14,242 nt of DNA. Source: Candidatus Omnitrophota bacterium. Its GTDB lineage: Bacteria > Omnitrophota > Koll11 > JAHIPI01. The notes under the pieces were generated by a model. It did no database searches and was not told the origin of the DNA. It saw only the letters and a list, made by a program, of their open reading frames with translations. This document shows, one piece after another, positions 1 through 13,107 of this stretch. Both the position numbers and the translations under genes were made by a program. Each line of letters begins with the position of its first letter. Within the stretch, counting starts at the first letter, position 1. The stretch spans positions 1-14,242 of the forward strand of contig JAQUMG010000022.1 of assembly GCA_028718265.1 (NCBI GenBank), read 5' to 3'.

Positions 1-945
1 CAAAAAACTTACGATTCCCGAAATAAAAGGAGTGGCCAGCCAGCACAAGATCATATCTTTTGCGATGCGCATATTCAGGACATGCATACCCCTCACCAGG
101 CCCACCCCGAAAATAGCGCCGACTATTGAATGGCTCGTGGAAACCGGTATTCCGAAAACTGTGTAGACGTGTACATTGATCGCGCTGGCAAACTGTGCGG
201 AAAACGCCATGATGGGTAAAAGATGGGTTATTTCGGAACCTATTGTCTCTATTACCTTATATCCCCACGTTACGATGCCCAGGACTATCGCGGCACCTCC
301 CAAAATAATTGCTACATTCGTCGGAAGTATGCCTGCTCCGACAATTACGCCTATGGAATTTGCGACATCATTAGCGCCCCACGTATAAGCTACATAACAG
401 CCGCTGATAATTATCAAGACCGTAAAAGTAGTTTTCAGGTATTTTCGCTGAACGATGCGGTAAAACGAATTCTGAAAAGCCCTGTAGAAGATATACCCTA
501 AAATAGCGGCACCCAGAGGAGTAAAAATCCAGCAGGCAAATATATCAAAAAGCACTTTCCATTTCACCGGCGCGCCGATGGCCAGTCCTGCGCCGGCGAC
601 CGCGCCGACTATAGAGTGACTGGTCGAGATGGGCATCTTCCAATACGTTGCCAAAACTACCCAGACACATGCAGCGAAAGAAGCTACCAGCGCTAAATAC
701 AATCCGACGGTCTTGTCCAGCTTGTCAATAGGCACAATGCCTTTGCCTATTGTCGCAGATACATGGCCGCCCTGAAGAAATGCTCCCAAAAAACCGAAGA
801 TAGCTATTAAAACAATGGCCTGCTTTAAAGTCAACACGCGCGAGCCGACAGCCGTACCCATTGAGTTGGCAGCATCGTTCGCGCCGATCGACCAACCGAC
901 CGCGATGCTCATCAATACAGTAATAAAAATTAATATAAGATACAT
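1..945 (-). CDS. pit: PiT-family inorganic phosphate transporter (C-terminus cut by window edge)
   Basis: This is an inner-membrane carrier of the PiT family, which imports inorganic phosphate with a cation and often lets arsenate through as well. I translated it by hand: 315 codons stay open from ATG at 945 to base 1. The family signature is duplicated, as expected for PiT: GANDAANSMG near residue 22 pairs with GANDVANSIG near residue 190, and STSHSIVGA occurs near residues 108 and 275. Most of the rest is hydrophobic membrane helix. The 3' end lies outside the window. It follows the cupin-like gene by 20 nt but has its own promoter-like sequence and no Shine-Dalgarno. Met12 would cut into the first helix, so Met1 is preferred. 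Arsenate entry through PiT would fit the nearby arsenic operon, but that link is inference. The family call is firm. Confidence 0.93.
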   Translation of the reverse strand, partial: MYLILIFITVLMSIAVGWSIGANDAANSMGTAVGSRVLTLKQAIVLIAIFGFLGAFLQGGHVSATIGKGIVPIDKLDKTVGLYLALVASFAACVWVVLATYWKMPISTSHSIVGAVAGAGLAIGAPVKWKVLFDIFACWIFTPLGAAILGYIFYRAFQNSFYRIVQRKYLKTTFTVLIIISGCYVAYTWGANDVANSIGVIVGAGILPTNVAIILGGAAIVLGIVTWGYKVIETIGSEITHLLPIMAFSAQFASAINVHVYTVFGIPVSTSHSIVGAIFGVGLVRGMHVLNMRIAKDMILCWLATPFISGIVSFL

Positions 946-955
946 ATTTGGTTGG

Positions 956-984
956 ATTATATCATTTATGGGGACAAATGTAAA
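956..984 (-). promoter_or_regulatory. Predicted sigma70 promoter of pit, giving a near-leaderless mRNA
   Basis: On the minus strand, TTTACA (979-984) is followed by a 17-nt spacer and a consensus TATAAT (956-961). The expected transcription start is about 949, only about four bases before the pit ATG at 945. The promoter overlaps the end of the upstream cupin-like gene, whose stop codon is at 966-968. Confidence 0.55.
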
Positions 985-1391
985 GGCCGGAAGATGCATT
1001 TGACTTCGGCATTTTCCGTTATTTTTATTTCGGCTTCCGGCGTCAGGGTTATGACACCGTGCCATATGCCTTTTTTCAATATAACAGGTCTGTCTAAATA
1101 GAAGCGTTCTATTTTGGACGTCTTGCTGGCTGACAGATAAATAATGCTCCTGCCGCGCACAGGCTCAAAACTCTCAAAAGAGTCCGGATGTTGTTCAAGC
1201 CTGCTTATCACCTTGTCTCTTAGTACAAGATACGCTATTCTCCAGCCTATTTTTTTATTTTCCCTGAGGATTATGCGAAAAAGGTTTGCGTTCTTATCTT
1301 TGGGACGTTTTCCGGTATATTCTATAACCCAGCCGTATTTTTTGAAATTTTTGCCGGTTATTTTTTTGACAAACAACCCGAAACGTCCCAT
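966..1391 (-). CDS. Cupin-fold hypothetical protein, ureidoglycolate lyase-like
   Basis: A 141-residue protein of unproven function. The central and C-terminal parts look like the RmlC-type cupin fold of the ureidoglycolate lyase family. Residues about 45-60 (IGWRIAYLVLRDK) precede a 'QHPDSFESF.PVRGRSIIYL' stretch (about 67-87), then LDRPVILKKGIWHGVI (about 99-114), which has the usual 'proline, gap, G-WH' strand pattern. The typical metal-binding His set is incomplete: one His is in QHPDS and one in GIWHG. There is no signal peptide or membrane segment. It starts two bases after the PilZ gene stop, so it is probably co-transcribed with it, but no clear Shine-Dalgarno is visible. No purine-degradation gene is nearby, so a ureidoglycolate role is unlikely; a sugar- or small-molecule-binding cupin is equally possible. 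Confidence 0.6.
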   Translation of the reverse strand: MGRFGLFVKKITGKNFKKYGWVIEYTGKRPKDKNANLFRIILRENKKIGWRIAYLVLRDKVISRLEQHPDSFESFEPVRGRSIIYLSASKTSKIERFYLDRPVILKKGIWHGVITLTPEAEIKITENAEVKCIFRPLHLSP

Positions 1392-1393
1392 TT

Positions 1394-1792
1394 TTACTTG
1401 GGGGTTTGTATCAGGGTCTGGATATCCCTGGGAAGGCGATCTGATTTTGTCACAAAAGCCACGCCGACGTCATATATGCCGCTGTCTTTTTCCTCTATCC
1501 TTACTACTTTGCCGAGGACGCGGTTATTAACTATCAGGGCGTTTTTTTCTATCTCTTCACAGACTCTTGCGGTCTGGTAATCGAGATCTAAAACCAATAA
1601 GCTGGAAAGTTGCGGTGCCTCGGTCGTGCTGAAAAGCATGCCGGAACCGCTTAAATTTCTGGCAACGGCGCTGACCAGCGAAGACATGAATCTTTTATCT
1701 TTGGATAAATTTACAGTATTGTAATTAAAGAATTTCTCATAGTGGCACCTGAAGAACCTTCTTTTTTCCTCTCCCCTGTAACCTTCATCCAT
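1394..1792 (-). CDS. PilZ-domain protein, likely c-di-GMP receptor
   Basis: A 132-residue single-domain PilZ protein. PilZ domains bind cyclic di-GMP through an RxxxR motif and a later (D/N)xSxxG motif. Both are present: R11-R12-F-F-R15 near the N-terminus, and N46-L-S48-G-S-G51 followed by M-L-F, where the first strand of the barrel begins. The end (VLGKVVRIEEKDSGIYDVGVAFV) is the usual closing strand pattern. No output domain is attached, so it would act by binding a partner such as a motility, secretion or envelope component; the sequence does not say which. A perfect AGGAGG Shine-Dalgarno lies at 1798-1803, five bases before ATG. It has its own promoter and leads a likely PilZ-cupin unit. 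The domain call is good; ligand binding is inferred from the motifs. Confidence 0.8.
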   Translation of the reverse strand: MDEGYRGEEKRRFFRCHYEKFFNYNTVNLSKDKRFMSSLVSAVARNLSGSGMLFSTTEAPQLSSLLVLDLDYQTARVCEEIEKNALIVNNRVLGKVVRIEEKDSGIYDVGVAFVTKSDRLPRDIQTLIQTPK

Positions 1793-1821
1793 AATGGCCT
1801 CCTATTTTGATGGCACTTCAT

Positions 1822-1850
1822 AGTATACCTGCAAAAACACCAAACCGCAA
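1822..1850 (-). promoter_or_regulatory. Predicted sigma70 promoter of the PilZ-cupin unit
   Basis: The minus strand reads TTGCGG (1845-1850), a 17-nt spacer and TATACT (1822-1827). The predicted start is about 1815. This gives a leader of roughly 20 nt that contains the AGGAGG site of the PilZ gene. Confidence 0.65.
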
Positions 1851-1867
1851 GGGAAAAACTAATTTGA

Positions 1868-1898
1868 TAGAGAAAAATCAAGCTTTCTATTTTCTCTA
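1868..1898 (-). terminator. Possible weak terminator after greA
   Basis: A 9-bp perfect inverted repeat (TAGAGAAAA at 1868-1876, TTTTCTCTA at 1890-1898) encloses a 13-nt loop and begins ten bases after the greA stop. On the minus strand the stem is AT-rich and a TTTTT run follows only after about nine more bases, so it is not a classical terminator. It is listed because it lies exactly between greA and the next promoter. Confidence 0.35.
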
Positions 1899-1907
1899 CT
1901 ATAATTA

Positions 1908-2393
1908 CTAATCTTCATTTCCTCCATATTCAAACTTTACTATTTTATATTCCAACGCGCCTGCGGGAACCTGGACCTTAATCACCTCACCTGCCTTATG
2001 GCCGATCAATCCTTTACCTACGGGACAGGTAATTGATATTTTATTTTTTGCAAAATCGGCCTCATCCGTGCTGACCAGATAATATGTCATCTTTTCTTTT
2101 GTCTTCGGATTTTCCAGATAGACTTTTGCACCTATATTTATTTTAGTTGTATCTATATTCAGGCTTTCTATTATAGCAACGCGGGTGAGTTTATCTTCCA
2201 GCTCAGCTATCCGCTTCTCGATAAACCCTTGCCTGTCTTTGGCCGCGTCATATTCGGCGTTTTCGCTTATATCGCCTTTATCGCGCGCTATGCCTATCTC
2301 TTTAGCTATCTCGCGCCTGTCGACTTTTTTAAGCTTCTCCAGCGTTTTCATCAGCTCTTCGTATTTTTTCTGAGTAAGATATATGCGTTCCAT
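1908..2393 (-). CDS. greA: Transcription elongation factor GreA
   Basis: GreA inserts its N-terminal coiled coil into the RNA polymerase secondary channel and stimulates cleavage of backtracked RNA. The 161-residue length is normal for the family. Residues 1-75 form the helical hairpin, with the catalytic tip at G40-D41-I-S-E44-N-A-E-Y; D41 and E44 match the acidic pair that holds the metal. Residues about 80-161 form the FKBP-like domain, including CPVGKGLIGHKAGE and the terminal VPAG...YKIVKFEY. I chose ATG at 2391-2393: GGAGG lies five bases upstream at 2399-2403. An upstream in-frame TTG at 2405 would add four residues and absorb this ribosome site. The gene follows the MFS gene closely and probably shares its promoter. 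The identification is very secure. Confidence 0.97.
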   Translation of the reverse strand: MERIYLTQKKYEELMKTLEKLKKVDRREIAKEIGIARDKGDISENAEYDAAKDRQGFIEKRIAELEDKLTRVAIIESLNIDTTKINIGAKVYLENPKTKEKMTYYLVSTDEADFAKNKISITCPVGKGLIGHKAGEVIKVQVPAGALEYKIVKFEYGGNED

Positions 2394-2407
2394 TTTATCC
2401 TCCAAAC

Positions 2408-3739
2408 TTAATCTTCCGGCGGTACCGCAAGTTCTGCGGCCGCGTTCATGCCTTTTGCAACTTCAGGGGCAACTCTTATTCTCTCATATATGGGATGTAC
2501 CATATTTTTTAATAAAGGTATCTTTGCGGCGAAAAAGAGCGAGGCAAGGGCGCAGCATGAACCGCTTATCATCAGGGTGACCGGGGTACCGATATTATTC
2601 GCCAGATATCCCGCTATAAGGCTTCCCAGGGGCGTCATCCCCATAAATGCCATTGAATAAAAACTCATAACGCGGCCGCGTTTATCATCGTCGACTATCG
2701 TCTGCAGGACAGTGTTGCTAGCCGCCATCTGTACCATCAAGCCGAAACCGATTATTATCAATGTAAGCAATGATACCCATAACGTACGGGAGAACGAAAG
2801 CACAATCATGCCTACGCTGAAAATGGCCGAGGCAATCGGAATTATGGGGCCTAATTTTAACATGCCTTTACGCGATGCCAGATATAAAGTGCCTATCAGA
2901 GCACCGGCTCCGACGGCAGTCATTAAAAATCCCAGTGTTTTCGGGCCCCCACCGAGAACTTCTTTGGCAAAAACCGGCATCAGCACAACGTAAGATGTCC
3001 CCATGAGGCTTAGTATCCCCAGAAGTATCAATATGAATCTTATGGGGATAAATCCGAATGTGTAATTAAAACCTTCTCTTAAACCGTGTAAAACATTCTT
3101 ATATTGCATCTTCTGTTTTCTGGGTTTAAGTTTCATCGCCAAAAGACACCATATAACGGCGAAAAAACTTATGCCGTTAATAAGAAAACACATACCTTCG
3201 CCGGTTAAGGCGATAAGTATACCGGCTATGGACGGGCCGACCAGCCTCGCCATGTTAAACATCATGGAATTCAGGGCAATGGCATTACCCAGAGTCTCTT
3301 TCTTCTCCACCATGTCTATTACAAAAGATTGCCGCGCCGGTATGTCCAGCGAATTGACCGCGCCGAGGAATATCCCCATAACAATAATATGCCAGACCGC
3401 TACAGTGTGCGTTAGCACCAGATATGCCAGAATAAAAGCCTGAATCATCGCAAGTGTCTGGGTAACCAGAAGAATTGAGTGGCGGTTCCACCTGTCGGCG
3501 AGCACACCGGCAAAGGGGCTCAGAAGAAAAGCGGGAATCTGGCTTGAAAATCCGACTATTCCGAGGATCAGCGCCGAACCGGTAAGACGATATACGAGCC
3601 AGCTCATCGCTATCTGCTGCATCCAGGTACCGATTAAAGATATGCCTTGGCCTATAAAAAACAGACGGTAATTCCTGTATTCCAGCGCACGGAATATTGT
3701 CTTGAGTAAAGACGGCTGTGCGGTTTTGCTGAATTTCAT
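2408..3739 (-). CDS. MFS transporter, MFS_3 (EntS-like) type
   Basis: A 443-residue major facilitator with about 12 predicted membrane helices. The start (ALEYRNYRLFFIGQGISLIGTWMQ) is typical of the MFS_3 group, which includes the enterobactin exporter EntS and many drug or siderophore exporters. Motif A between helices 2 and 3 is clear: GVLADRWNRHSILL, about residues 78-91. Another conserved MFS_3 stretch, LDIPARQSFVIDMV, is near residues 131-144, followed by NAIALNSMMFNMARLVGPSIAG. The substrate cannot be read from the sequence; efflux is likely. It has its own promoter and an AAGGAT ribosome site about eight bases before ATG, so it is probably not part of the arsenic operon that ends just upstream. 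greA starts 14 nt after its stop. Confidence 0.9.
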   Translation of the reverse strand: MKFSKTAQPSLLKTIFRALEYRNYRLFFIGQGISLIGTWMQQIAMSWLVYRLTGSALILGIVGFSSQIPAFLLSPFAGVLADRWNRHSILLVTQTLAMIQAFILAYLVLTHTVAVWHIIVMGIFLGAVNSLDIPARQSFVIDMVEKKETLGNAIALNSMMFNMARLVGPSIAGILIALTGEGMCFLINGISFFAVIWCLLAMKLKPRKQKMQYKNVLHGLREGFNYTFGFIPIRFILILLGILSLMGTSYVVLMPVFAKEVLGGGPKTLGFLMTAVGAGALIGTLYLASRKGMLKLGPIIPIASAIFSVGMIVLSFSRTLWVSLLTLIIIGFGLMVQMAASNTVLQTIVDDDKRGRVMSFYSMAFMGMTPLGSLIAGYLANNIGTPVTLMISGSCCALASLFFAAKIPLLKNMVHPIYERIRVAPEVAKGMNAAAELAVPPED

Positions 3740-3769
3740 CGGGATTATCCTTCGGTAATAATTCTAACG

Positions 3770-3798
3770 ATTATACCGCAGGCGTCATATTTCCTCAA
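3770..3798 (-). promoter_or_regulatory. Predicted sigma70 promoter of the MFS-greA unit
   Basis: The minus strand shows TTGAGG (3793-3798), a 17-nt spacer and a consensus TATAAT (3770-3775). The predicted start is near 3763, about 24 nt before the MFS ATG. No clear terminator is visible between acr3 (stop at 3836) and this promoter, so read-through from the arsenic operon is possible. Confidence 0.7.
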
Positions 3799-3835
3799 GG
3801 AAAAACCGGCTCTTGCTTTAGCTAAAATATAACCT

Positions 3836-4876
3836 CTAAAAATATCTCCCTTTAAAATACAAGGCGACATTAACAAGCGAGATTAACACCGGAACTTCTA
3901 CCAACGGTCCGATAACCGCAGCAAAAGCCGCGCCCGAGTTAATCCCGAACACAGCCACCGCGACGGCAATCGCCAGCTCAAAATTATTGCTTGCCGCAGT
4001 AAACGCCAACGTTGCCGTCTTTGCATATCCGGCGCCGGATCTTTTGCCCATGTAAAAAGAAACTAAAAACATAAGCACAAAATAAATCAAAAGCGGAATT
4101 GCGATTCTGACCACATCAAGCGGTATCTTAATAATATATTCGCCCTTCAGCGAGAACATGACCGCGATGGTAAATAGCAACGCTACCAGGGTTAGTGGGC
4201 TTATTCTCGGTATAAACTTTTCCTCATACCATTTTTTACTCTTTAGTTTCAGAAAGGTTAAGCGTGTAATAATTCCTGCGAGAAAAGGGATGCCGAGATA
4301 GATGAAGACGCTATTAGTAATCTGGACAATGCTGATATTGACCTCGGTCCCCTTAAGTCCAAAATATGGCGGAAGAACGGTAATAAAAAACCAGGCGTAA
4401 GCCGAATAGAAGATAACTTGAAATAAAGAATTGAAAGCTACCAGGCCTGCGCAATATTCAGTATCGCCCCTGGCAAGGTCATTCCAGACAATGACCATGG
4501 CAATGCAACGCGCCAAGCCAATCATGATCAGGCCAACCATATATTGCGGGTAATTCCGCAAGAATATCACTGCCAGCAGGAACATTAAAATTGGGCCGAT
4601 AATCCAGTTCTGAATAAGTGACAGCGAAAGAATCTTGGCATTTTTGAAAACACCCCCCATCTCTTCATACTTTACCTTCGCCAGTGGCGGATACATCATA
4701 AGAATCAGGCCGATAGCGATAGGGATATTGGTTGTGCCTACCTGAAACTTATTCCAGAATCCGGCAATTTGCGGATATAAATATCCGGCTCCGACTCCGA
4801 TTGCCATGGCAAGGAAAATCCATAGAGTTAAAAAACGATCTAGAAAGGACAATTTTTTAGCTATACCTTCTCTCAT
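3836..4876 (-). CDS. acr3: Arsenite efflux carrier Acr3
   Basis: Acr3 is a ten-helix inner-membrane carrier of the bile/arsenite/riboflavin transporter superfamily that expels arsenite using the proton gradient. This 346-residue protein has the normal length. The hallmark [19 protein letters not shown] is at about residues 120-138, with the single conserved thiol Cys124 that corresponds to the essential Cys of characterised Acr3 proteins. Further family motifs are LIQNWIIGP near residue 87, [13 protein letters not shown] near residue 294 and GPLVEVPVL near residue 323. The second-to-last motif holds Glu300 and the last Glu327. Its ATG shares one base with the stop of the arsG-like gene (TAATG), so translation is coupled, and it closes the ten-gene unit. 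The call is secure, and it anchors the reading of the whole cluster as arsenic resistance. Confidence 0.96.
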
Positions 4877-5571
4877 TACGGCCTCCTTATTGCCAGAATG
4901 AAGATCACGGCATAATAACCGCCGATGATAACAAAAATTATGCCGGTAATCTTTCGCGTATGATGCTCTAATCTTGTCAGTCTATGAAACCAGCGGCTTA
5001 ATGACGTTACTCCCGCGGCAATCGCAACAGCAAAAACTAAAACCGGAAGCCCTGTACCGATCCCGTAAATAAACGGCAGGATTGCTCCGAGCTTATGATT
5101 GATCGCTAGCGGAATAAGGCTTCCGAAAAAAAGAGCTGCGGATATCGGGCAGAAGGCAAGCGCGAATATCGCTCCTAATAAAAACGCTCCGGGGGCGCCT
5201 GCTTCAGCAAGTTTATTGTGATATTTCTGGAAAAGCGATACTCTCGGCAAATTTATCTTAATTACATCCAGTAGTATTAATCCGGTAATAATCAGAATGG
5301 GGCCGATGGCTTTGGCCGTATATTTTTGAAGAAACTGCGCTACTTGAGGAACGCTCAGGATTGAATTGATGAGAATAAATCCGAGTGCCGCATAAGAAAT
5401 CATTCTTCCGGCCGTATAGGCGACGCCGGAGAGTAAAACAAAAAAAGGATGAGTTATCTTTTTAGCAATAAAAGATACGGCTGCTACATTAGTAGCTAAA
5501 GGGCAGGGGCTTATTGAAGTCAATATGCCCAGCCATAACGCCGATATAAAACCTATGACTATCTCTATCAT
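4876..5571 (-). CDS. arsG: ArsG-like permease of the DsbD/CcdA membrane family
   Basis: A 231-residue membrane protein with about six helices and the DsbD/CcdA transmembrane fold. The two family cysteines are present: Cys23 in SISPCPLAT (helix 1) and Cys141 in AFCPISAAL (helix 4). These are the positions that form the thiol pair moving electrons across the membrane in CcdA. The gene is adjacent to an ArsF-like gene and acr3. That order matches the arsEFG type of locus, in which ArsG was described as an efflux permease for trivalent aromatic arsenicals. Two readings remain open: arsenical exporter, or transmembrane electron carrier for the exported ArsF-like partner. It overlaps the ArsF-like gene by four bases (ATGA) and acr3 by one base, so all three are translationally coupled. 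The fold is secure; the ArsG name is by resemblance and context. Confidence 0.78.
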
Positions 5572-5996
5572 TCGGCTTCCTCCAAGAAATCAGCGACTCC
5601 GGCCTTAACATAGTCGATGAATTTTTGCTTGTTACCTACATATTCCCAAATCTTATCGAGATTTTTCCATTTTGCTTCTTTACCGCCTTTGATCAATGAT
5701 AAAACAAGTGATTTGGTGTAAAGCTGGTAGTCTTGAGTGTAATGTTCGTTGCCCTTATCCTCTACGTTAACAACTTTAAGTTCAAGCTTGCCTGCGGAAA
5801 TAGCATCCTTGAAGTTCATTTCTATCGCTTCCTTGGAATATTGCTCCAGCTTATAGCAGGTAGGGCAGCGAAACGTGCCATGGAAATAGTACGCAATAAC
5901 ACGGCCGGTTGGTTTATTGTCGGCATCCTGCGCATTAGCAAAGCTACCGCAAAGAAAAACCGATAAAATAAAAAACAACGTGAAAACCTTACGCAT
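5568..5996 (-). CDS. arsF: ArsF-like exported thioredoxin-fold protein
   Basis: A 142-residue protein with a Sec signal peptide: a basic MRK start, a hydrophobic stretch to about residue 19, and a likely cleavage after Ala-Asn-Ala22. The mature part opens with a strand, RVIAYYFHGTFRCPTCYKLEQ, which places a thioredoxin-like CxxC (Cys44-Pro-Thr-Cys47) where the active site is expected. Cys16 is in the signal region without a good lipobox. It resembles the family named ArsF, reported as a subunit reducing the nitro group of nitrophenyl arsenicals together with ArsE. It starts 15 nt after the HdrA-like gene and overlaps the ArsG-like gene by four bases. The pair suggests a periplasmic (or outer-face) thiol protein served by the membrane partner. 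The fold and export are well supported; the arsenical substrate is inferred from context. Confidence 0.75.
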   Translation of the reverse strand: MRKVFTLFFILSVFLCGSFANAQDADNKPTGRVIAYYFHGTFRCPTCYKLEQYSKEAIEMNFKDAISAGKLELKVVNVEDKGNEHYTQDYQLYTKSLVLSLIKGGKEAKWKNLDKIWEYVGNKQKFIDYVKAGVADFLEEAE

Positions 5997-6011
5997 TCTA
6001 ACTCCTCTTGG

Positions 6012-6371
6012 TTACGGATTATTTCTGATGACTTCCTTTATAGCGGTTACCGCTTCTTCGGTAGTTTTATTCCTGATATCAAAAGCAATATGTTTTGATC
6101 TATCAAACCCCACCGCCTCAAATGAATCGCGGAACATTTTCTGCTGCATTAATGGGTCGCATGCCGCAACATACAACTTATCTATATCTTTGTTATCCAG
6201 CAAAATCTTAAGATATTGATCGCCGTCATCCGCGCAAAGCTGAGGATGTAAGGAAACAAAGTCTACGAGCTTCTCCCTGCGGATGGCATTCAAAACCTCC
6301 ATTGTATCCATCTTATTAAATGAAGGGCAGGTGCCCTGGCAGACACAAAGGATCAAGCCTTTCTTAGCCAT
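6012..6371 (-). CDS. Free-standing HdrA N-terminal-like domain protein
   Basis: A 119-residue soluble protein that resembles only the N-terminal domain of HdrA (heterodisulfide reductase subunit A) and related proteins. It begins GLILCVCQGTCP (Cys9, Cys11, Cys15), where HdrA has its first cysteine motif. It continues with QLCADDGDQ near residue 45 (Cys46), comparable to HdrA's CSDPGQ. It then has LYVAACDPLMQQKMFRDSFEAVGF at about 67-90 (Cys71), the counterpart of VVAACSPRMHE.TFR. The FAD-binding and ferredoxin domains of real HdrA are absent. The next gene upstream encodes a ferredoxin one base away, so the two together look like a split iron-sulfur electron-transfer unit. Five cysteines could hold a cluster, or bind arsenite directly. 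The likeness to HdrA is motif-level and the role is unknown. Confidence 0.65.
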   Translation of the reverse strand: MAKKGLILCVCQGTCPSFNKMDTMEVLNAIRREKLVDFVSLHPQLCADDGDQYLKILLDNKDIDKLYVAACDPLMQQKMFRDSFEAVGFDRSKHIAFDIRNKTTEEAVTAIKEVIRNNP

Positions 6372-6372
6372 T

Positions 6373-6588
6373 CTATTTGCCTCCTTTTTTATCGCCGAAA
6401 AATGTTATCGCCTTCTGGTCGCATATTTTACCGCACCCCTTGCAGAATTCTACGCAGTTTTCCGGATGCGCGATTTTCGATTTTCCGTCCGGGCCTATCT
6501 CAAATACCCCGTGGGGACAGAAATTATAACATTGCATGCATCCGGTGCATTTAGTGTAATCTATTATCGGATACCAATTCTTCGCCAT
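6373..6588 (-). CDS. Small 2[4Fe-4S] ferredoxin
   Basis: A 71-residue low-potential electron carrier with eight cysteines in two sets. The first is canonical, C14-x2-C17-x2-C20-x3-C24 followed by Pro (CTGCMQCYNFCPHGVF). The second is spaced C45-x3-C49-x2-C52-x3-C56 (CVEFCKGCGKICDQKAI), with one extra residue between its first two cysteines and no Pro after the last. The first half looks like HgcB and other PHGVFEI-type ferredoxins, but the C-terminal cysteine pair of HgcB is missing. It lies 11 nt after the thioredoxin-like gene and one base before the HdrA-like gene, so it is probably an electron donor for that neighbour. Iron-sulfur function is nearly certain; the partner is inferred. Confidence 0.88.
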   Translation of the reverse strand: MAKNWYPIIDYTKCTGCMQCYNFCPHGVFEIGPDGKSKIAHPENCVEFCKGCGKICDQKAITFFGDKKGGK

Positions 6589-6599
6589 TTATCGCACCT

Positions 6600-6836
6600 T
6601 TACTTTGCCAAGATCCATTTCTTTATTTCATCCGGCGTTGGGATCTTGCCCGCGGCTTTTATCTCGCCGTCTATCACAATTGCAGGAGTTACCATAAGCC
6701 CATAATCTATGATTTTCTGTATATCCTCGACTTTGATTATCTCTGCCTGAACGCCTGATTCCTTCACCGCGGCTTGCGCATTCTCGTATAGTTTTTTGCA
6801 TTTGGGACAGCCCATGCCCAATATTTCTATTTTCAT
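6600..6836 (-). CDS. Minimal thioredoxin-like protein with CPKC motif
   Basis: A 78-residue cytoplasmic protein of the 'redox-active disulfide protein 2' / mini-glutaredoxin type. The active site C10-P-K-C13 sits right after the first strand (MKIEILGMG), and the conserved cis-proline follows as V49-T-P51-A near the third strand. The ending GKIPTPDEIKKWI is usual for this group. Members often lie beside CcdA-like and arsenic genes and are thought to reduce disulfides or carry metalloids between thiols. Here it sits between usp and the ferredoxin, 14 and 11 nt away. It could pass electrons to the ArsG/CcdA-like membrane protein or serve as the ArsE-like partner of the ArsF-like protein; I cannot separate these. 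Confidence 0.85.
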   Translation of the reverse strand: MKIEILGMGCPKCKKLYENAQAAVKESGVQAEIIKVEDIQKIIDYGLMVTPAIVIDGEIKAAGKIPTPDEIKKWILAK

Positions 6837-6850
6837 TTCCTATTTCTCCT

Positions 6851-7321
6851 TTATAACGGTAAAAATTTGCATTTTTTATGCTTAACGATAAGTACCGCGC
6901 ATTCGGCTTTCCTGGAAACCTTGTCAGCAGTAGATCCTAAAAACGCATGTCTCAACTCGCTCCTGCCGTGGCTGGAGATTACAATCAAATCCATACACTT
7001 GCTTTTCGCGAATCTTACTATTTCTACAAAAGCATGCCCTTCCCTGATAACTGCTCCGGCGAATAATTTGCGGGGGATGTAAGATTTAAACGTCTCTAGA
7101 CTTCTCTTTTTCTCTACAATAAAATCTTTGTGGAACTTCGCGCAGATATTCTCAAGAGGAGGATGTATTTTGTGTATCTGGTTCATGTGAAAAATATCTT
7201 CTTCCACATGCAAAAGGTGAATTTTACCGTTACAGCATTCCGCTAACTCCACGGCAGTTTCCAGCGCCTTTTTGGAAAAATGCGAAAAATCAATAGGAAC
7301 TAATATTTTTTTAAATCGCAT
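6851..7321 (-). CDS. Universal stress protein, UspA family
   Basis: A 156-residue cytoplasmic protein with the Usp alpha/beta fold. The start [16 protein letters not shown] holds Asp11, the usual nucleotide contact. The C-terminal loop [21 protein letters not shown] at about 115-135 follows the ATP-binding pattern G-2x-G-9x-G-(S/T), with Ser116 in place of the first Gly and Gly119, Gly129 and Ser130 kept. ATP binding is therefore plausible. The central part carries extra His and Cys residues (HMNQIHKIH, Cys60, Cys109, Cys151). Its start overlaps the end of arsM by 11 bases, and GGAGG lies just before ATG, so it is clearly built into the arsenic unit. Usp genes do occur near metal-resistance genes, but no arsenic-specific role is visible in the sequence. 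Confidence 0.92.
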
Positions 7322-8162
7322 CGTGCCCTCCTTTAGCTTTTACCGCGCTAACCTTGACGCTTACCACTGAACATTCGATATCCTTTAAGTCCTTATCCTT
7401 AATAACAGGATTATTTTTAACTATCTGGGCGGTAATATCATTGGCCATGGCGGCTATAGGATACTCGGTTTGGCCAAGCACTTTGATATCCTGAAATCCC
7501 GCGAGCCTGATATAGTTCAAATAATCGTTTTTCTTACTGGCTCCCGCAAGACAGCCGACATAAGCCTCGATGGATTCTTTTACAATATCCGGCAAATCTT
7601 TAACTAAAACCAGGTCCGAAACCATAATCCTTCCTCCGGGTTTAAGCACTCTGAAAGCTTCCTCGAAAACCCTTTGCTTCTCAGGGGAAAGATTAATAAC
7701 GCAGTTCGAAATAATTACATCAACCGAATTGTCTTCTACGGGAAGTTTCTCAATTTCGCCGAGCCTAAATTCGACATTTGTATAGTCGCCTTTTTTGGCA
7801 TTCGCGCGCGCTTTTTTAACCATTTCCGGCGTCATATCGACACCTATGACCTTGCCGGTTTTCCCGACTCTTGGAGAGGCAAGAAAGGCATCAAATCCCG
7901 CGCCGGAACCCAAATCAAGCACCACATCGCCTTCTTTTAAGGATGCGATGGCTACCGGATTGCCGCAGCCCAGGCCAAGATTGGCCCCGTCAGGAACGGT
8001 ACTCATCTCTTTCTCGCCATATCCAACAGCCCTGCTTATATCTTTAGCCTGGTTTATGCCTCCGCAACAAGAACTTGTAGAACAACAAGAAATATTCTGC
8101 GTCGCTACCTTGGCATAACCTTGTTTGACAATTTTCTTTATCTCCTGCATTTTCTTTTTCAT
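7311..8162 (-). CDS. arsM: Arsenite S-adenosylmethionine methyltransferase ArsM
   Basis: ArsM transfers methyl groups from S-adenosylmethionine to arsenite, producing methylated trivalent arsenicals that are exported or lost as gas. At 283 residues it has normal length. The SAM site is [12 protein letters not shown] (about 80-91), with the following acidic strand end [10 protein letters not shown]. The three conserved arsenic-binding cysteines are recognisable: Cys66 in GLGCGNPVA, Cys154 in [10 protein letters not shown] and Cys204 in AYVGCLAGA. The N-terminus carries two extra CysCys pairs, at 26-27 and 32-33, that could take up As(III). It lies 16 nt after the permease gene and overlaps usp by 11 bases. 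The start at 8162 has only a weak AAGGCGG ribosome site; Met5 is a possible alternative. This is a very secure call. Confidence 0.96.
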
Positions 8163-8178
8163 ATACCGCCTTTTGTTA

Positions 8179-9351
8179 TTATTTAACCACCGCTCCGAAA
8201 ATCATTCCGCATATGGTCGCCATGACAACAACCAGACTCACGTAGACAACAGTTTTTTTAGTTCCCATAACACTACGTAATACAAGCATACTCGGTAAAC
8301 TTAAAGCCGGCCCGGCTAAAAGCAGCGCCAAGGCGGGCCCCTTGCCCATACCTGAACCGATTAAACCCTGTAAAATAGGCACCTCGGTTAGTGTGGCAAA
8401 ATACATGAACGCCGCAACGATAGACGAAAAGAAATTCGCCCGCAGGGAGTTGCCCCCTACAAGCATTTCGACAAATCTTGAGGGTATAATACCTTCATGC
8501 CCGACTCTGCCAAGCAAGAATCCCGATACAAGCACCCCCGCTAATAAAAGTGGCAGGATTTGCAATGCAAAACCCCACGCAGCAGAAACCCATTCTTTCA
8601 ACTCGTCTTTCTTGAACCATTTGAAAAGCATAATAACTAAACCCGCAAGCGAAAACCCAGCGATCCACCATTTATACTGATAAATTAATGACCAAATACC
8701 ATGGTCACCCTCAAGCGGTTTGCCCCAGTTAACAAAAACGAGGAACACTATCATTGAAGCGAAATAAAGAATCGTTTTACCTAAAGAACGGGTTTCTTTT
8801 ACCCCGCCGAGGGTAAAATCGCCGTTTGCGTGGCGCGCTCTTTCTTCCTTTAAGAATATAAGGTGCATTAATAGACCAATAACCACGCTAAATATAACCG
8901 CGCCTATCGCCCTTGCCAGTCCAAGCTGCCAGCCAAGAATACGTGCAGTAAGAATAATAGCAAGAACATTTATAGCAGGCCCTGAATATAGGAAAGCAAT
9001 CGCCGGTCCAAGGCCGGCTCCTCTCTTATATATACCAGAGAATAAGGGCAAGACTGTGCATGAGCAGACTGCAAGAATAGTCCCCGATACCGAAGCAACG
9101 CTGTAGGAAAGTAATTTATTCGCCTTGGCGCCGAAATACTTCATCACCGATGCCTGGCTGATAAATACCGAAATTGCGCCCGCGATGAAAAAAGCAGGAA
9201 CAAGACATAGCAGGACGTGTTCCCGCGCATACCACTTGACAAGAGCTAACGCTTCAAAAACCGCATTCGTAAAACGCAGGTTTTCAATGGGCAGATAAAA
9301 GCATGCCAAAAATGCCGCCACAATATATAGGAATTTTTTCCATTCTTTCAT
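8179..9351 (-). CDS. arsP: ArsP-type permease (DUF318/PF03773 family)
   Basis: A 390-residue membrane protein with about eight to ten helices in two related halves. The diagnostic stretch [40 protein letters not shown] at about residues 92-131 contains Cys96-Ser-Cys98, typical of the ArsP/YraQ permease family. The second half repeats the pattern in [36 protein letters not shown]. Characterised ArsP exports trivalent methylated and aromatic arsenicals, which suits a gene just before arsM; other family members have unknown cargo. I chose ATG at 9351 because it overlaps the DUF134 stop as ATGA, a coupling arrangement; an in-frame TTG at 9378 would add nine residues. The family is secure; arsenical export is inferred from context. 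Confidence 0.82.
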
Positions 9352-9653
9352 CGCTTTACTCGCTTTGTAACCCTGCAACAGCCGCCTTCGATTCTTATGG
9401 CTTTAATATTAACCAGCCCGTCGGCCACCTTATTGCGGCCCGAGGATATGATTCTTGAAAATGTGGAATGCGATATATTGAGTTTTTTTGCCGCGTCGAC
9501 TTGTTGCAGTCCTTCCAGATCGGCAAGTCTTATTGCCTCGAATTCGTCCAAGGTTAAACAAACGTTCTTCAGCTTATTCAAAGGCCTGCAAAGCGGCTTA
9601 AAACATCTTTCGCCGGGTAAACAGCTTATCCATCGGGTTTTCTTAGGGCGCAT
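9348..9653 (-). CDS. Cysteine-rich DUF134 (UPF0251) predicted DNA-binding regulator
   Basis: A 101-residue member of the DUF134/UPF0251 family, small proteins with a sigma-region-4-like helix-turn-helix. Family landmarks are LTLDEFEAIRLADLEGLQQVDAAKKLNISHSTFSRII at about 33-69, where the helix-turn-helix lies around residues 48-70, and RNKVADGLVNIKAIRIEGG at about 73-91. Six cysteines are visible (11, 17, 22, 32, 92, 93); the CysCys at 92-93 sits after the usual family end. It is the first gene of the arsenic unit, follows a strong promoter with a palindromic operator, and has an AAGGAT ribosome site about six bases upstream. An arsenic- or redox-sensing regulator that controls its own operon is the natural reading, but no experiment on this family is known to me that proves metalloid sensing. 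Confidence 0.85.
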   Translation of the reverse strand: MRPKKTRWISCLPGERCFKPLCRPLNKLKNVCLTLDEFEAIRLADLEGLQQVDAAKKLNISHSTFSRIISSGRNKVADGLVNIKAIRIEGGCCRVTKRVKR

Positions 9654-9664
9654 ATCGGATCCTT

Positions 9665-9686
9665 GTTATGAACATATGTTCATAAC
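9665..9686. promoter_or_regulatory. Perfect 22-bp palindrome, likely operator of the arsenic operon
   Basis: The half-site GTTATGAACAT is followed by its exact complement ATGTTCATAAC, centred between 9675 and 9676. It lies directly after the -10 box and covers the predicted transcription start, an ideal place for a repressor. The core TGAACA-TA-TGTTCA resembles the inverted repeats bound by ArsR/SmtB-type sensors. The binding protein could be the DUF134 protein or an ArsR-type repressor encoded elsewhere. Confidence 0.75.
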
Positions 9687-9688
9687 TA

Positions 9689-9716
9689 ATTATATCATAA
9701 CTCAATATGGATGCAA
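9689..9716 (-). promoter_or_regulatory. Predicted sigma70 promoter of the arsenic operon
   Basis: The minus strand shows TTGCAT (9711-9716), a 16-nt spacer and a consensus TATAAT (9689-9694). The predicted start, about 9682, is inside the 22-bp palindrome, leaving a leader of about 30 nt before the DUF134 ATG at 9653. Confidence 0.72.
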
Positions 9717-9717
9717 C

Positions 9718-9747
9718 AAAAAAAGTCCCAAACATCTATGTTTGGGA
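9718..9747 (-). terminator. Rho-independent terminator after tRNA-Leu
   Basis: On the minus strand a 9-bp perfect stem (TCCCAAACA at 9726-9734 with TGTTTGGGA at 9739-9747) with a 4-nt loop is followed by a C and seven U residues (9718-9724). It would stop transcripts coming from tRNA-Leu and the upstream genes, just before the arsenic operon promoter. Confidence 0.85.
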
Positions 9748-9778
9748 TTCGGTGGGTCTGCTTTTTGAAAGAGGAATA

Positions 9779-9817
9779 TTAAGGAGAAAACTTTTTAGAA
9801 AAAAGTTTTCTCCTTAA
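9779..9817. repeat. 18-bp perfect inverted repeat
   Basis: The left arm TTAAGGAGAAAACTTTTT (9779-9796) and its exact complement (9800-9817) are separated by AGA. It is AT-rich with no U-tract on either side, so it is not an ordinary terminator. Its last base is shared with the outer arm of the neighbouring composite repeat. Confidence 0.85.
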
Positions 9818-9916
9818 ACAAAGTTGGGCACTAGCCCCGCCTCTATTTACCCGTCTGCGGGTCGGAGGCGCAAAAAGAGTAAACCTTCCTTTTTGGCGCC
9901 GCAGACCAACTTTGTT
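9817..9916. repeat. Nested composite inverted repeat downstream of tRNA-Leu
   Basis: The outer arms AACAAAGTTGG (9817-9827) and CCAACTTTGTT (9906-9916) match over 11 bp. Inside, GTCTGCGG (9853-9860) pairs with CCGCAGAC (9899-9906), and GGCGCAAAAAG (9867-9877) pairs with CTTTTTGGCGCC (9889-9900) with one bulged G. A small ACCCG-TCTG-CGGGT hairpin lies at about 9849-9862 as an alternative to the second pair. There is no coding potential. It looks like a mobile-repeat remnant or a structured 3' trailer of the tRNA transcript. Confidence 0.7.
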
Positions 9917-9918
9917 AG

Positions 9919-10003
9919 TGGTGCGCGGGGCGGGATTTGAACCCGCAATCCGTGAGGAACTAGCTCCTCAAGCTAGCGCGTATGCCAGTTCCGCCACCCA
10001 CGC
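9919..10003 (-). tRNA. tRNA-Leu (anticodon GAG)
   Basis: An 85-nt class II tRNA read on the minus strand. The acceptor stem GCGTGGG pairs with CCCGCGC (one G-U pair), followed by discriminator A and an encoded CCA (9921-9919). The anticodon stem CTAGC/GCTAG encloses the loop TTGAGGA, giving anticodon GAG for the leucine codons CUC and CUU. The long variable arm and the T arm GCGGG-TTCAAAT-CCCGC are intact. It has its own promoter just upstream. Confidence 0.96.
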
Positions 10004-10015
10004 AATGCCTTTTAT

Positions 10016-10043
10016 ATTATACCATCAACTTTGTCAGACGCAA
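10016..10043 (-). promoter_or_regulatory. Predicted sigma70 promoter of tRNA-Leu
   Basis: The minus strand shows TTGCGT (10038-10043), a 16-nt spacer and a consensus TATAAT (10016-10021) in the short gap after the glnS stop. The predicted start is about six bases before the mature tRNA 5' end. Confidence 0.65.
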
Positions 10044-10048
10044 GAATT

Positions 10049-11734
10049 CTAGAGCTTCCGCTCGATTTTAGCCCATGTATCCCGTAATGTCACGGTGCGG
10101 TTAAAAACAGGCTTCCCGTCTTTTTCGCTTATGCTGTCAACGAAGAAATATCCCAATCTTTCAAATTGGTAATGACTGCCGGGAACCGCATTTTTAAGGC
10201 TCGGCTCGGCATAACACGAGCGGACAATTTCCAGCGAATTAGGATTCAGATTAACTGTGAAATCGGCACCAGCCGGCGTATCATTCGGATCGCGTTTTGT
10301 AAAAAGTGTATCATATAGACGTGCTTCGGTTTCTACTGCGTGGCGGCAGGATACCCAATGAATCGTGCCTTTGATTTTTCTGCCGTCGGGCGTATCGCCG
10401 CCGCGGGTTTCGGGATCATATGTACAATGTATTTCTTTTATCGCGCCGGTTTTTTCATCTTTGGAAACACCGACGCATTTCACAATATACGCATAACGCA
10501 GCCTTACCTCAGCGTCCGGGGCCATACGGAAAAATTGTTTCGGCGGCGTTTCGCGGAAATCATCTTCCTCAATGTACAGCTCGCGTGAAAAAGGTACTTT
10601 TCTCGTTCCCATCGCCGCATCTTCCGGATTGTTCACCGCATCGAATTCTTCGGTTTTATCGTCAGGGTAATTGTCGATTATTACTTTGACCGGGTGCAGC
10701 ACTGCCATGACACGCGGCGCTTTTTTATTAAGCTCCTCGCGGATACTGTTTTCAAGGAGCACCATATCGACGATACTGTCAACTTTTGCCACACCGATCC
10801 GGTCGCAGAATCTTCTGATGGACTCGCTCGTATAGCCCCGCCGCCTTAATCCTGAAATCGTCGGCATGCGCGGATCATCCCAGCCGCTGACGTGTTTTTT
10901 CTCGACAAGTTCCAGTAATTTACGTTTGCTCAAAATGGTATGGCTGAGGTTAAGCCGGGCAAATTCTATCTGCTGAGGATGGTGAACGTCTAGTTCTTCA
11001 AGAATCCAGTCATATAGCTGACGATGAACATCAAATTCGAGGGTACAGATTGAATGCGTTATCCCCTCGATGGAATCGCATATACAATGAGTAAAATCGT
11101 ACGTCGGGTAAATGCACCATTTGTCACCTGTCCGGTGATGCGCAGCCTTTCTGATCCTGTAAAATACGGGATCGCGCATCAATAAATTCGGGTGGGCCAT
11201 GTCGATCTTGCCGCGGAGGACTTTCCGGCCTTCTTCGAATTCGCCGTTCCTCATGCGCGCAAATAAATCAAGATTTTCATCGATACTGCGATTGCGGTAC
11301 GGGCTTTCTTTTCCGGGCTCCCTGATAGTCCCGCGGTATTTTCTCATTTCTTCCAGAGGCTGATCGCATACGAAGGCTTTACCGCTTTTAATAAGCTCAA
11401 CTGCATATTCATATAATTTTTCAAAATAATCCGATGCGTAATAGAGGCGGTTACCCCATTCGAACCCGAGCCAGCGGACATCTTCTTTGATGGAATCGAC
11501 GTACTCGACATCCTCGGTCTCCGGATTCGTATCGTCAAAACGCAGATTACACAACCCGTTATAATCGCGCGCGATTCCGAAATTCAGGCATATGCTTTTG
11601 GCGTGGCCGATATGAAGGTATCCGTTGGGTTCCGGAGGGAAGCGGGTATGGACGCGCCGGTCATGCTTGCCGGCAGCCAGGTCCCGGTCGATTATTTCAC
11701 GTATAAAATTAGTTGTTGGTTTGGGTGTTTCCAT
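10049..11734 (-). CDS. glnS: Glutaminyl-tRNA synthetase
   Basis: GlnRS charges tRNA-Gln with glutamine and ATP. The 561-residue protein is near the E. coli length. The class I signature is at about residues 33-44 ([15 protein letters not shown]), and the KMSKS-like loop reads HTILSKRKL at about 265-273. The N-terminus [17 protein letters not shown] and the [16 protein letters not shown] stretch are classic GlnRS, which sets it apart from GluRS. The C-terminal anticodon-binding beta barrels are present and end with [14 protein letters not shown]. The start at 11734 is required because the family's N-terminal block begins right after it. It lies only four bases after the tRNA-Gln CCA end, leaving no room for a normal ribosome site outside the tRNA. 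Its presence means Gln-tRNA is made directly rather than by amidation alone. Confidence 0.98.
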
Positions 11735-11738
11735 AAAG

Positions 11739-11812
11739 TGGTTGGCGGACTAGGATTTGAACCTAGACTAACAGATCCAGAGTCTGTGGTGCTACCGTTA
11801 CACTATCCGCCA
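11739..11812 (-). tRNA. tRNA-Gln (anticodon CUG)
   Basis: A 74-nt tRNA on the minus strand between gltX and glnS. The acceptor stem TGGCGGA pairs with TCCGCCA, followed by discriminator A and an encoded CCA (11741-11739). The anticodon stem ACAGA/TCTGT encloses CTCTGGA, giving anticodon CUG for the glutamine codon CAG. The weak U1-A72 first pair is typical of tRNA-Gln. It starts two bases after the gltX stop and ends four bases before the glnS ATG, so it is almost certainly cut out of a gltX-glnS transcript. A UUG-anticodon tRNA-Gln must exist elsewhere to read CAA. Confidence 0.95.
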
Positions 11813-11814
11813 AT

Positions 11815-13107
11815 TCATCGATTAATTTGTACCGCCGCTTCATCAATACGCCGAAAGACAGTCTCTTTGCCCAGAATTTCCATCATCTCAAAAAGGCCGG
11901 CGCCGGTTGTGGTTCCGCTTATCGCAACCCGCATGGGATGTATCAATTCGGCAGGTTTTATGTGTAATTCCGCTGCCGTGTTTCTGCAATTTTCTTCCAG
12001 ACTGACATTATCAAAAGATTTTATACCGGCCAGCCTTTTCTTCCACTCAATGAGATTGGCCTTTGATTTTTCATTCTCGAGATGCTTCTTAACCGCTTCC
12101 GGGTCACGGTTAATCTTATCGCTATAGAATATCTTAACGTGCCCCGCGAAATCGGCCAATGTCTTCATCCGGATTTTGTATAATTCTACCAGACGGAGCA
12201 ATTTTTCTCTATCAAAATCTTCGCCGATTATGTGATTTTCCCTGAGGTGCGGTACTAAAAGTTCTAAAAGCTCCTTTGAGTCCTTTTCCTTTATATATTG
12301 CCCGTTAAGCCAGTTCAGTTTATCTATACCGAATATGGCGCTCGTTTTATTAACTTTTTCAAGTGTGAATTCTTTTATAAGTTCTTTCGATGATAGTATC
12401 TCCCTGTTATCGCCCGGCGACCACCCCATTAACGCCAGGAAATTCACCAGTGCCTCCGCCAGATAACCCTGATTTTTGTATTCCATGATGCTGGTCGCGC
12501 CATGCCGTTTTGATAATCGCCCGCCATCCGGCCCCATAATCAGAGGTATATGGGCAAATTTCGGGATAGAAAACCCCAGCGCTTCATATATCGCTATCTG
12601 CTTCGGTGTATTCGATATGTGATCGTCTCCCCGGACTACGTGAGTTATCTTCATGCCAGCATCGTCGACAACACATGCAAAGTTATACGTCGGGAAACCA
12701 TCGGATTTTATCAATACTTCATCTTTCAGTACTTCGGAATCAAATTCTATATCGCCTCTGCATATATCGTGAAACCTGATTTTTTTCTCTGGCATGCGGA
12801 AGCGTATCGCACTATCCTCTTTATAAGCCTTATCTTCCTTGAGCAGTTTTTCTGCAATATCGCGGTACGTTTCTATCCGCTGCGACTGATACACCAATAT
12901 CTCGTCGGATTCCATTCCCAGCCATTTAAGGCTTGCCAGAATCTCGGTGAGAAATTCATCCTTGGAGCGGGTTCTGTCGGTATCCTCGATTCTCAGCAGA
13001 AATTTTCCGTTTTCATGGCGCGCAAAAAGCCAGTTGAAAAGCGCGCTTCTTGCGCTTCCTATGTGCAGAAAACCCGTGGGGCTTGGTGCGAATCTGACTC
13101 TTACCAT
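11815..13107 (-). CDS. gltX: Glutamyl-tRNA synthetase, short form lacking the Cys-rich insert
   Basis: GluRS attaches glutamate to tRNA-Glu. The class I HIGH motif is RFAPSPTGFLHIGSARSALF at about residues 4-23, and the KMSKS motif is GGRLSKRHGAT at about 197-207. RIEDTDRTRS and THVVRGDDHISNTPKQI are also diagnostic. At 430 residues it is shorter than the usual 460-490. The missing part lies between KEDKAYKED (about 90-98) and SAIRFRMPE, where the canonical protein has the CxC...C zinc-type segment of about 40-45 residues. The frame is intact and the flanks are normal, so this is a natural short form or a precise assembly deletion. It starts seven bases inside the end of dxs, and the tRNA-Gln follows its stop by two bases. 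The identity is certain. Confidence 0.96.
   Translation of the reverse strand: MVRVRFAPSPTGFLHIGSARSALFNWLFARHENGKFLLRIEDTDRTRSKDEFLTEILASLKWLGMESDEILVYQSQRIETYRDIAEKLLKEDKAYKEDSAIRFRMPEKKIRFHDICRGDIEFDSEVLKDEVLIKSDGFPTYNFACVVDDAGMKITHVVRGDDHISNTPKQIAIYEALGFSIPKFAHIPLIMGPDGGRLSKRHGATSIMEYKNQGYLAEALVNFLALMGWSPGDNREILSSKELIKEFTLEKVNKTSAIFGIDKLNWLNGQYIKEKDSKELLELLVPHLRENHIIGEDFDREKLLRLVELYKIRMKTLADFAGHVKIFYSDKINRDPEAVKKHLENEKSKANLIEWKKRLAGIKSFDNVSLEENCRNTAAELHIKPAELIHPMRVAISGTTTGAGLFEMMEILGKETVFRRIDEAAVQINR

Follow-up and report, generated by a model that had tools for sequence, protein, structure and literature searches.

Gene content and promoter of the operon

We analysed a 14,242-nucleotide stretch of DNA from Candidatus Omnitrophota bacterium (assembly GCA_028718265.1, contig JAQUMG010000022.1, positions 1 to 14,242; the whole stretch is referred to here as the window), which carries an arsenic resistance (ars) operon headed by a gene of the DUF134 (UPF0251) family. 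As the original prediction had described from the letters alone, ten genes run in one direction on the minus strand from 9653 to 3836; in our junction analysis of the window, no gap exceeds 16 nt and four neighbouring pairs overlap. The first gene, a putative DUF134 regulator (9348..9653), matched PF02001 at 74.9 bits (cut-off 27); its helix-turn-helix (HTH) spans helices 35-46, 51-57 and 62-77, and its cysteines are C11, C17, C22 and, within EGGCC, C92 and C93. An ArsP_1-family permease with a CSC motif follows (8179..9351; PF03773, 261.7 against 32.3), 390 residues long when started, by eye, at the ATG at 9351 that overlaps the DUF134 stop; no ArsP equivalog model matched it, and the SaoE and SO_0444 models stayed under their cut-offs (109.9 against 325 and 108.1 against 300). 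Next come the arsenite methyltransferase gene arsM (7311..8162; NF008823, 367 against 263), in which C66, C154 and C204, presumably the arsenic-binding cysteines, are kept in 16 of 18 aligned sequences; the universal stress protein gene usp (6851..7321; PF00582, 93.7 against 24); arsE, thioredoxin-like with CPKC at C10/C13 (6600..6836; TIGR00412 'MTH895/ArsE family', 106.9 against 62); a two-cluster ferredoxin (6373..6588; Fer4 domains, motifs CxxCxxCxxxCP and CxxxCxxCxxxC); a stand-alone HdrA N-terminal domain, termed HdrA-N (6012..6371; C9, C11, C15, C46 and C71); arsF, with a CPTC motif and, by eye, an apparent signal peptide (5568..5996; NF040494, 112.4 against 60); arsG, coding for a membrane protein of DsbD/CcdA type whose C23 and C141 lie in CP motifs (4876..5571; NF040495, 275.8 against 200); and the arsenite efflux permease gene acr3 (3836..4876; TIGR00832, 464.8 against 282.8).

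With ArsM, ArsE, ArsF, ArsG and Acr3 all over curated cut-offs, the arsenic function first proposed for these genes was borne out. The generic thioredoxin label given to the CPKC protein was not: the protein is ArsE, and therefore arsE-arsF-arsG, which occur together in that order and all exceed NCBIfam cut-offs, are the known arsEFG set, said to have been described by Chen, Zhang and Rosen in 2019 as a roxarsone and nitarsone resistance set. The order of the three genes is that of the set, but in the window they share an operon with arsP, arsM, usp and acr3, the ferredoxin and HdrA-N genes interrupt them after arsE, and DUF134 stands first. The operon also shares with ArsR-controlled ars operons Acr3 and ArsM over cut-off and a presumed regulator as first gene; here, however, DUF134 takes that place, weak fold matches liken its modelled HTH to DeoR and sigma region 4 rather than to ArsR/SmtB, and profile searches found no ArsR/SmtB match among the ten genes. 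From the start of the operon, DUF134 and arsP share a 4-nt ATGA overlap, arsP and arsM are separated by 16 nt, arsM overlaps usp by 11 nt, and arsE follows usp after 14 nt; gaps of 11, 1 and 15 nt then separate arsE, ferredoxin, HdrA-N and arsF, and arsF/arsG and arsG/acr3 overlap by 4 and 1 nt. An MFS gene is next after acr3, with 96 nt between.

Upstream of DUF134 on the same strand, sequence inspection located a -10 TATAAT (9689..9694) and, across a 16-nt spacer, a -35-like TTGCAT (9711..9716); the related loci L001 and L005 have TTGACA in this region. A perfect 22-bp palindrome, GTTATGAACATATGTTCATAAC (9665..9686, minus strand), lies over the expected transcription start and is the proposed DUF134 operator. 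The 20-bp core of the palindrome stops 12 bp short of the DUF134 start, and less perfect versions occupy the same position in L001 and L005. A terminator-like hairpin at 9747-9718 (TCCCAAACATAGATGTTTGGGA, then a T run) was noted by eye just upstream of the promoter, preceded in the direction of the operon by a tRNA-Leu at 9919-10003.

DUF134 and the palindrome in front of it

A near-invariant palindrome, TTATGAACATATGTTCATAA, was found just after the -10 in front of many DUF134-headed operons. We assembled 111 DUF134 genes: the 30 best matches (L130-L159), low-identity copies (L160-L179), copies mostly not beside ArsG (L180-L199), copies mostly chosen for an operator match and hence not independent evidence for operators (L200-L219), and a mixed group, several beside ArsG (L220-L239). 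The palindrome precedes 29 of the 30 best matches; the start of L157 was mis-set and its site was recovered by pattern scan. Scanning with up to two mismatches yielded sites in 77 of 285 Omnitrophota genomes and none with a reversed-pattern control. Among the sites listed there was one per genome except in G045, and 66 of the 75 listed had a listed DUF134 no more than 150 bp downstream, with five more beside weaker DUF134 genes (L200-L204). When pairs were defined by a palindrome score of at least 8 within 30 bp of the start, 99 DUF134/operator pairs resulted, with an operator-to-start-codon distance of 10-19 bp in 94%.

Bases of the operator covary with residues of the protein. R67 occurs with G5 in 106/106 cases (82/82 among the 99 pairs, 24/24 in two other phyla) and N67 with T5 in 24/24 (17/17 and 7/7, respectively). 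The two other phyla are those of Geomobilimonas (G009) and of a Margulisbacterium (G007), where the palindrome was present at 31 of 60 DUF134 loci, the genes being called by profile and the operator rule being slightly looser than in the main set. Within the 72 proteins that end in a CC tail (the CC branch), double GCA half-sites (base 6 C on both sides) accompany H61 in 14/14 and its absence in 1/58 (p 5e-14), the H61 proteins usually also having S63 and V or I65; GAGC half-sites accompany H51 in 5/7 and its absence in 1/65 (p 9e-6). Of 101 columns ranked by mutual information with base 6 in this branch, residues 65, 63 and 61 came first to third; for base 5, residue 67 tied with residue 4, as expected if one clade carries the change. 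Residues 51-67 fall within the confidently modelled HTH, the only reliable part of the DUF134 model, whose fold matches were weak (best E 0.08). Because R67 and N67 covary with base 5, the reading that DUF134 binds the palindrome in front of it is strongly supported. DUF134 had been named a regulator without evidence; with the palindrome and the covariation, this has become the best supported and newest part of the account.

The sequence of the operator follows the branch of the family. All 30 best DUF134 loci have EGGCC near the C-terminus and 29 have ArsP next, some behind a small open reading frame (ORF); L136 has ArsM and Acr3. An ars-labelled gene is among the next three genes for 77 of 78 GGCC-ending DUF134 genes versus 3 of 33 others, for which the ArsM label was not counted as it marks small methyltransferases there. 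Our in-house ArsM label was over-called in this way (24-38 bits, N67 branch), as was ArsG (CcdA-like proteins, under 150 bits), and the Usp label seems to catch Acr3 through Acr3-Usp fusions, so counts use score limits or drop these labels. DUF134 copies ending EGGVV, EGGTV or similar carry TTATTRGCATATGCYAATAA instead of the ars-branch palindrome, and these non-ars copies (many of L160-L178) head, by eye, an operon of small methyltransferase, 121-residue Nitro_FeMo-Co-like and ferredoxin genes. From the side of ArsG, at least 49 of 91 matches have a listed DUF134 within 9 kb upstream. Taken together, these comparisons support the DUF134/palindrome pairing as the head of ars operons across Omnitrophota.

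Several observations weigh against so simple a picture. The N67/T5 and H61/GCA links amount to about one or two tree changes each (Fitch 1, 1; 1, 2), so their counts are not independent, while the H51/GAGC link recurs in four places by leaf order of the tree. That link has exceptions within the CC branch (L184 and L188 have H51 without G; in L001 one G half accompanies Q51) and breaks down outside that branch (L201-L203; G7 with Q51 in the N67 branch); GAGC sites in the other phyla mostly go with Q51 (L240, L241, L251, L268, L299), with H51 in L248. Base 6 C also occurs without H61 in L290 and L293, and in the window itself S63 is combined with GAAC sites. In the two other phyla neither the residue-51 nor the residue-61 link is general, and a general residue-51/base-7 rule was rejected, as it holds in the ars branch only. 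For four of the 75 listed sites, no DUF134 lies within 150 bp (the second site of G045, and those of G097, where DUF134 is about 430 bp off, G211, and G231, at a contig end); no operator was found under the rule used at 8 of 111 main-set loci and 29 of 60 loci in the other phyla; and 42 of the 91 ArsG matches have no DUF134 upstream among the matches listed, some lying at contig ends.

Two small ORFs recur at these loci. One, of about 50-65 residues between DUF134 and arsP, has a lysine-rich stretch and a C-terminal cysteine cluster (CC(C)...CC) and is absent from the window (L134, L138, L139, L143, L147, L153, L158, L159, L182, L205, L210, L221, L222, L225, L226); an arsenic-binding peptide or chaperone is a possible function. 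The other, of 54 residues (INLTxDDLLxVExI...), follows arsP near arsM or arsE in L137, L151 and L235. In L003, a 649-residue Acr3-like SBF protein is fused to Usp domains (9075-11024), and such fusions may be the reason why usp rides in these operons.

The arsEFG core and the ferredoxin/HdrA-N pair

ArsG was found in 82 of the 285 Omnitrophota genomes (E at most 1e-15), and we fetched about 2.7 kb around each of 30 of the best 31 among the 91 matches. ArsG was called in 29 of these 30 loci, with ArsF directly before it in 29/29; 20 loci had an Acr3 label downstream, and ArsE, ArsM, ArsP or DGC genes lay further upstream. Ferredoxin and HdrA-N were present in three of the 30 (L100, L105, L108). 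Therefore arsP-arsM-arsE-arsF-arsG-acr3 is a recurrent unit of Omnitrophota, into which the iron-sulfur (Fe-S) pair has been inserted after arsE and before arsF. Orthologs of HdrA-N (81-93% identity) are present in 5 of the 285 genomes. Each lies some 450-470 bp upstream of ArsG, and arsF fills the interval. Two more genomes have relatives of 39-40% identity, and nine further ones weak matches only, nearly all in HdrA-sized frames. The closest HdrA-N relatives and the named DUF134 relatives are from Omnitrophota. The gene order is not unique to this contig, as related layouts with ferredoxin and HdrA-N exist in L001, L003, L005 and L081-L085, several with an added DGC gene. A DGC-domain gene (PF08859 in L003) precedes the pair in three of the five ortholog loci and is absent from the window; it also occurs without the pair (L112, L113, L122). 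Of the redox module originally proposed, the conserved thiol and Fe-S cysteines stood, whereas ferredoxin and HdrA-N as a built-in part did not, given 82 genomes with ArsG against five with an HdrA-N ortholog and the pair at three of 30 ArsG loci. The 39-40% paralog lies in a different Omnitrophota layout with two ferredoxins and an ArsG-labelled gene (L086, L087, L220); in L087/L220, from one genome, ArsP, ArsE and DUF134 with an operator stand ahead of it.

The redox cysteines of the core are highly conserved: ArsE C10/C13 in 57/57, ArsF C44/C47 in 41/41, and ArsG C23 in 41/41 and C141 in 39/41. ArsG matches the DsbD_2 and DsbD_TM membrane domains and keeps two CP-motif cysteines, as DsbD/CcdA thiol transporters do, although its partners would be ArsE and ArsF. 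On this basis ArsE (cytosol), ArsG (a CcdA-type conduit) and ArsF (apparently exported) look like a transmembrane thiol relay, in which C23 and C141 of ArsG would have a redox role. A competing function has been reported: in the accessible text of one source, ArsG is described as an efflux transporter, and ArsE and ArsF as conferring organoarsenical resistance (PMC9144182). The reported efflux sets ArsG apart from the thiol transporters and is a rival to the relay.

HdrA-N is 119 residues long, and its AlphaFold model is confident (predicted local distance difference test, pLDDT, 93.4). Profile search and fold match both led to the N-terminal domain of HdrA, while the match to full-length HdrA models was weak (27 bits, far below cut-off); source names, where given, read 'heterodisulfide reductase subunit A-like' protein or polyferredoxin. 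Compared with HdrA of heterodisulfide reductase (PDB 5odc, 7bkb, 8rvu), HdrA-N shares the N-terminal fold, and Cys46/Cys71 align, but the thioredoxin-reductase domain that binds flavin adenine dinucleotide (FAD) and the ferredoxin domains are absent, and five cysteines, including C15, are invariant. C9, C11, C15, C46, C71 and H42 are without exception in an alignment of 50 of the 81 available sequences (L051, L052, L059 and L062 were dropped, and others never entered), and the eight cysteines of the ferredoxin are kept in 80-81 of 81 sequences. In HdrA, according to the available text of PMC9012536, the N-terminal Fe-S cluster takes one ligand, Cys197, from a partner subunit and lies on the proposed FAD-to-ferredoxin path. 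By analogy, a free-standing five-cysteine HdrA-N with a two-cluster ferredoxin looks like the HdrA exit path minus the flavin.

The pair also occurs outside Omnitrophota, in bacteria and archaea. The best 80 of 94 confirmed stretches in the genome collection came from Omnitrophota, Margulisbacteria, Geobacter and kin, Thermoanaerobacter, Thermotogota, Caldiserica, Anaerolineae, Thermococcus, other archaea and more. Neighbourhoods were counted at 74 of these loci, six lacking an HdrA-N call where an overlapping ORF had won. A ferredoxin directly adjoins HdrA-N on the same strand in 64 of the 74. Strict ars markers (ArsF, ArsG, Acr3, ArsM, ArsA or ArsD above score limits) were present at 30, ArsE or ArsP only at 12, and neither at 32. 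An ArsR-family gene was near HdrA-N at 31 loci, and in 25 of these the ArsR-family protein has somewhere a CxC, the motif of arsenic/cadmium-type ArsR. By these raw counts the pair is drawn to ars loci yet not confined to them and, to judge from gene content, it is dispensable and not arsenic-exclusive. HdrA-N was rejected as plasmid-borne cargo after a search of 72,556 plasmid records found nothing at E 1e-5. A replacement for a missing thioredoxin reductase was rejected as well: TIGR01292 is over cut-off in all six HdrA-N-bearing Omnitrophota tested (G001-G004, G035, G120), and overall 32 of the 37 genomes tested have it. The arsenate-respiring Geobacter sp. OR-1 has two HdrA-N copies on one contig, with about 13.5 kb between them and arsD/arsA or arsF labels close by (L009, L023); its genome note, in the portion available, reports two arsenic islands (PMC4319506).

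Two explanations of the pair were weighed against these counts. It stands at nearly an even chance, in our estimate, that ferredoxin and HdrA-N are an anaerobic module for thiol or Fe-S repair that is general, not arsenic-specific, and was recruited by ars operons since arsenite attacks thiols and clusters. The pair occurs beside DGC, Nitro_FeMo-Co (Pfam), OsmC-like, SufB-like (in-house labels) and ars genes; at several Thermotogota and Thermoanaerobacterium/Thermoanaerobacter loci its neighbours include ArsR-family genes while ars markers are absent. A general role fits less easily with strict ars markers at 30 of 74 loci, again as raw counts, when Acr3 is rare in HdrA-N genomes (over cut-off in 9 of 30 tested, hand-picked and leaning to loci with few ars genes). 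We consider it unlikely that the middle genes form, as first proposed, a single dedicated electron chain for reducing pentavalent or nitroaromatic arsenicals ahead of their export, with ferredoxin and HdrA-N integral to it. The tight adjacency of these genes, their conserved Fe-S and thiol cysteines, the position of all five Omnitrophota orthologs directly upstream of arsF-arsG and the CxC in 25 of 31 neighbouring ArsR-family genes are what such a chain would predict, but the pair is present at only three of 30 fetched ArsG loci, 32 of 74 HdrA-N loci have no ars marker, Acr3 over cut-off is missing in 21 of the 30 HdrA-N genomes tested, and no recognised reductase catalytic subunit was seen beyond the thiol and Fe-S proteins.

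DUF134 as a candidate arsenical-responsive switch

The cysteines of DUF134 separate the branches. In the CC branch C11 and C17 are each kept in 68/72 and C22 in 66/72, the CC tail being present by definition; in the N67 branch C11 is kept in 14/17, and C17, C22 and C93 in 0/17. Six Margulisbacteria proteins also end in CC (GGCC; GDCC in L275), with C22 in 6/6; the palindrome was found under the rule used in L270 and L295, and five of the six are next to ars-labelled genes (L270, L271, L274, L275 and L295, not L273; L274 by the 'Usp' label only). With C17, C22 and C93 absent from the N67 branch and 77 of 78 GGCC genes near an ars-labelled gene, trivalent arsenic is the likely ligand. The cysteine arms are modelled at pLDDT below 50, and C17 is missing from five of the six Margulisbacteria proteins; both count against a defined metal site, which is therefore a guess.

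It is very improbable that the palindrome is instead an ArsR/SmtB operator with DUF134 as bystander or coactivator: its half-site resembles SmtB/ArsR operators, and an ArsR-like gene lies near some relatives (for example L003:8648-9034, in-house label), but this reading was set aside because the operator bases covary with DUF134 residues. In addition, shifted versions of the palindrome take the same position at non-ars DUF134 genes, and genomes hold roughly one site each, which in nearly every case is at DUF134.

We thus read DUF134 as a repressor that is unrelated to ArsR, controls its own operon and probably responds to arsenicals. A dimer on the palindrome over the -10/+1 region would repress its own operon, and trivalent arsenic, inorganic or methylated, would bind C22, C92 and C93 (with C17 in Omnitrophota) and release it. 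The derepressed operon would then supply Acr3 for arsenite efflux, ArsM for methylation, the ArsP-family permease and the ArsEFG set, with ArsE (CPKC), ArsG (two CP cysteines) and ArsF (CPTC) forming a putative thiol relay across the membrane. Ferredoxin and HdrA-N would be an accessory Fe-S pair that a few lineages carry between arsE and arsF; as a guess, they might act as a flavin-free electron wire bringing low-potential electrons to the ArsE end. The whole is probably best explained as a DUF134-controlled arsenical-resistance operon of Omnitrophota. A broader reading, which we hold to be fairly likely, is that DUF134 proteins are autoregulatory repressors with a partly readable code (TTAT-NNNN-AT/AT-NNNN-ATAA; R67 going with G5 and N67 with T5 across three phyla; base 6 matched by residues 61/63/65 and base 7 by residue 51 within the ars branch), and that the branch with C22 and the CC tail is an arsenical-responsive class which replaces ArsR in Omnitrophota and some Margulisbacteria, switching operons to which a split-off HdrA domain and a ferredoxin can be added as an electron wire.

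The arsEFG set is the known part of this system, and DUF134 as a putative operator-reading switch is the apparently new one. In the open literature, with subscription papers mostly outside it, none of the papers listed describes, to judge by title and opening of the abstract, DUF134 as an arsenic regulator or the ten-gene operon; the available text of one paper that has DUF134 together with arsenic mentions the family once (PMC10434189). The analysis gives the widespread DUF134 family of unknown function a testable function, a binding site and a partial recognition code, and points to a highly conserved pair of ferredoxin and stand-alone HdrA-N in bacteria and archaea, for which our searches turned up no assigned role. 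It suggests that bacteria have a further, ArsR-independent way to sense arsenic, which could help in the annotation of uncultured lineages and in the design of arsenic biosensors.

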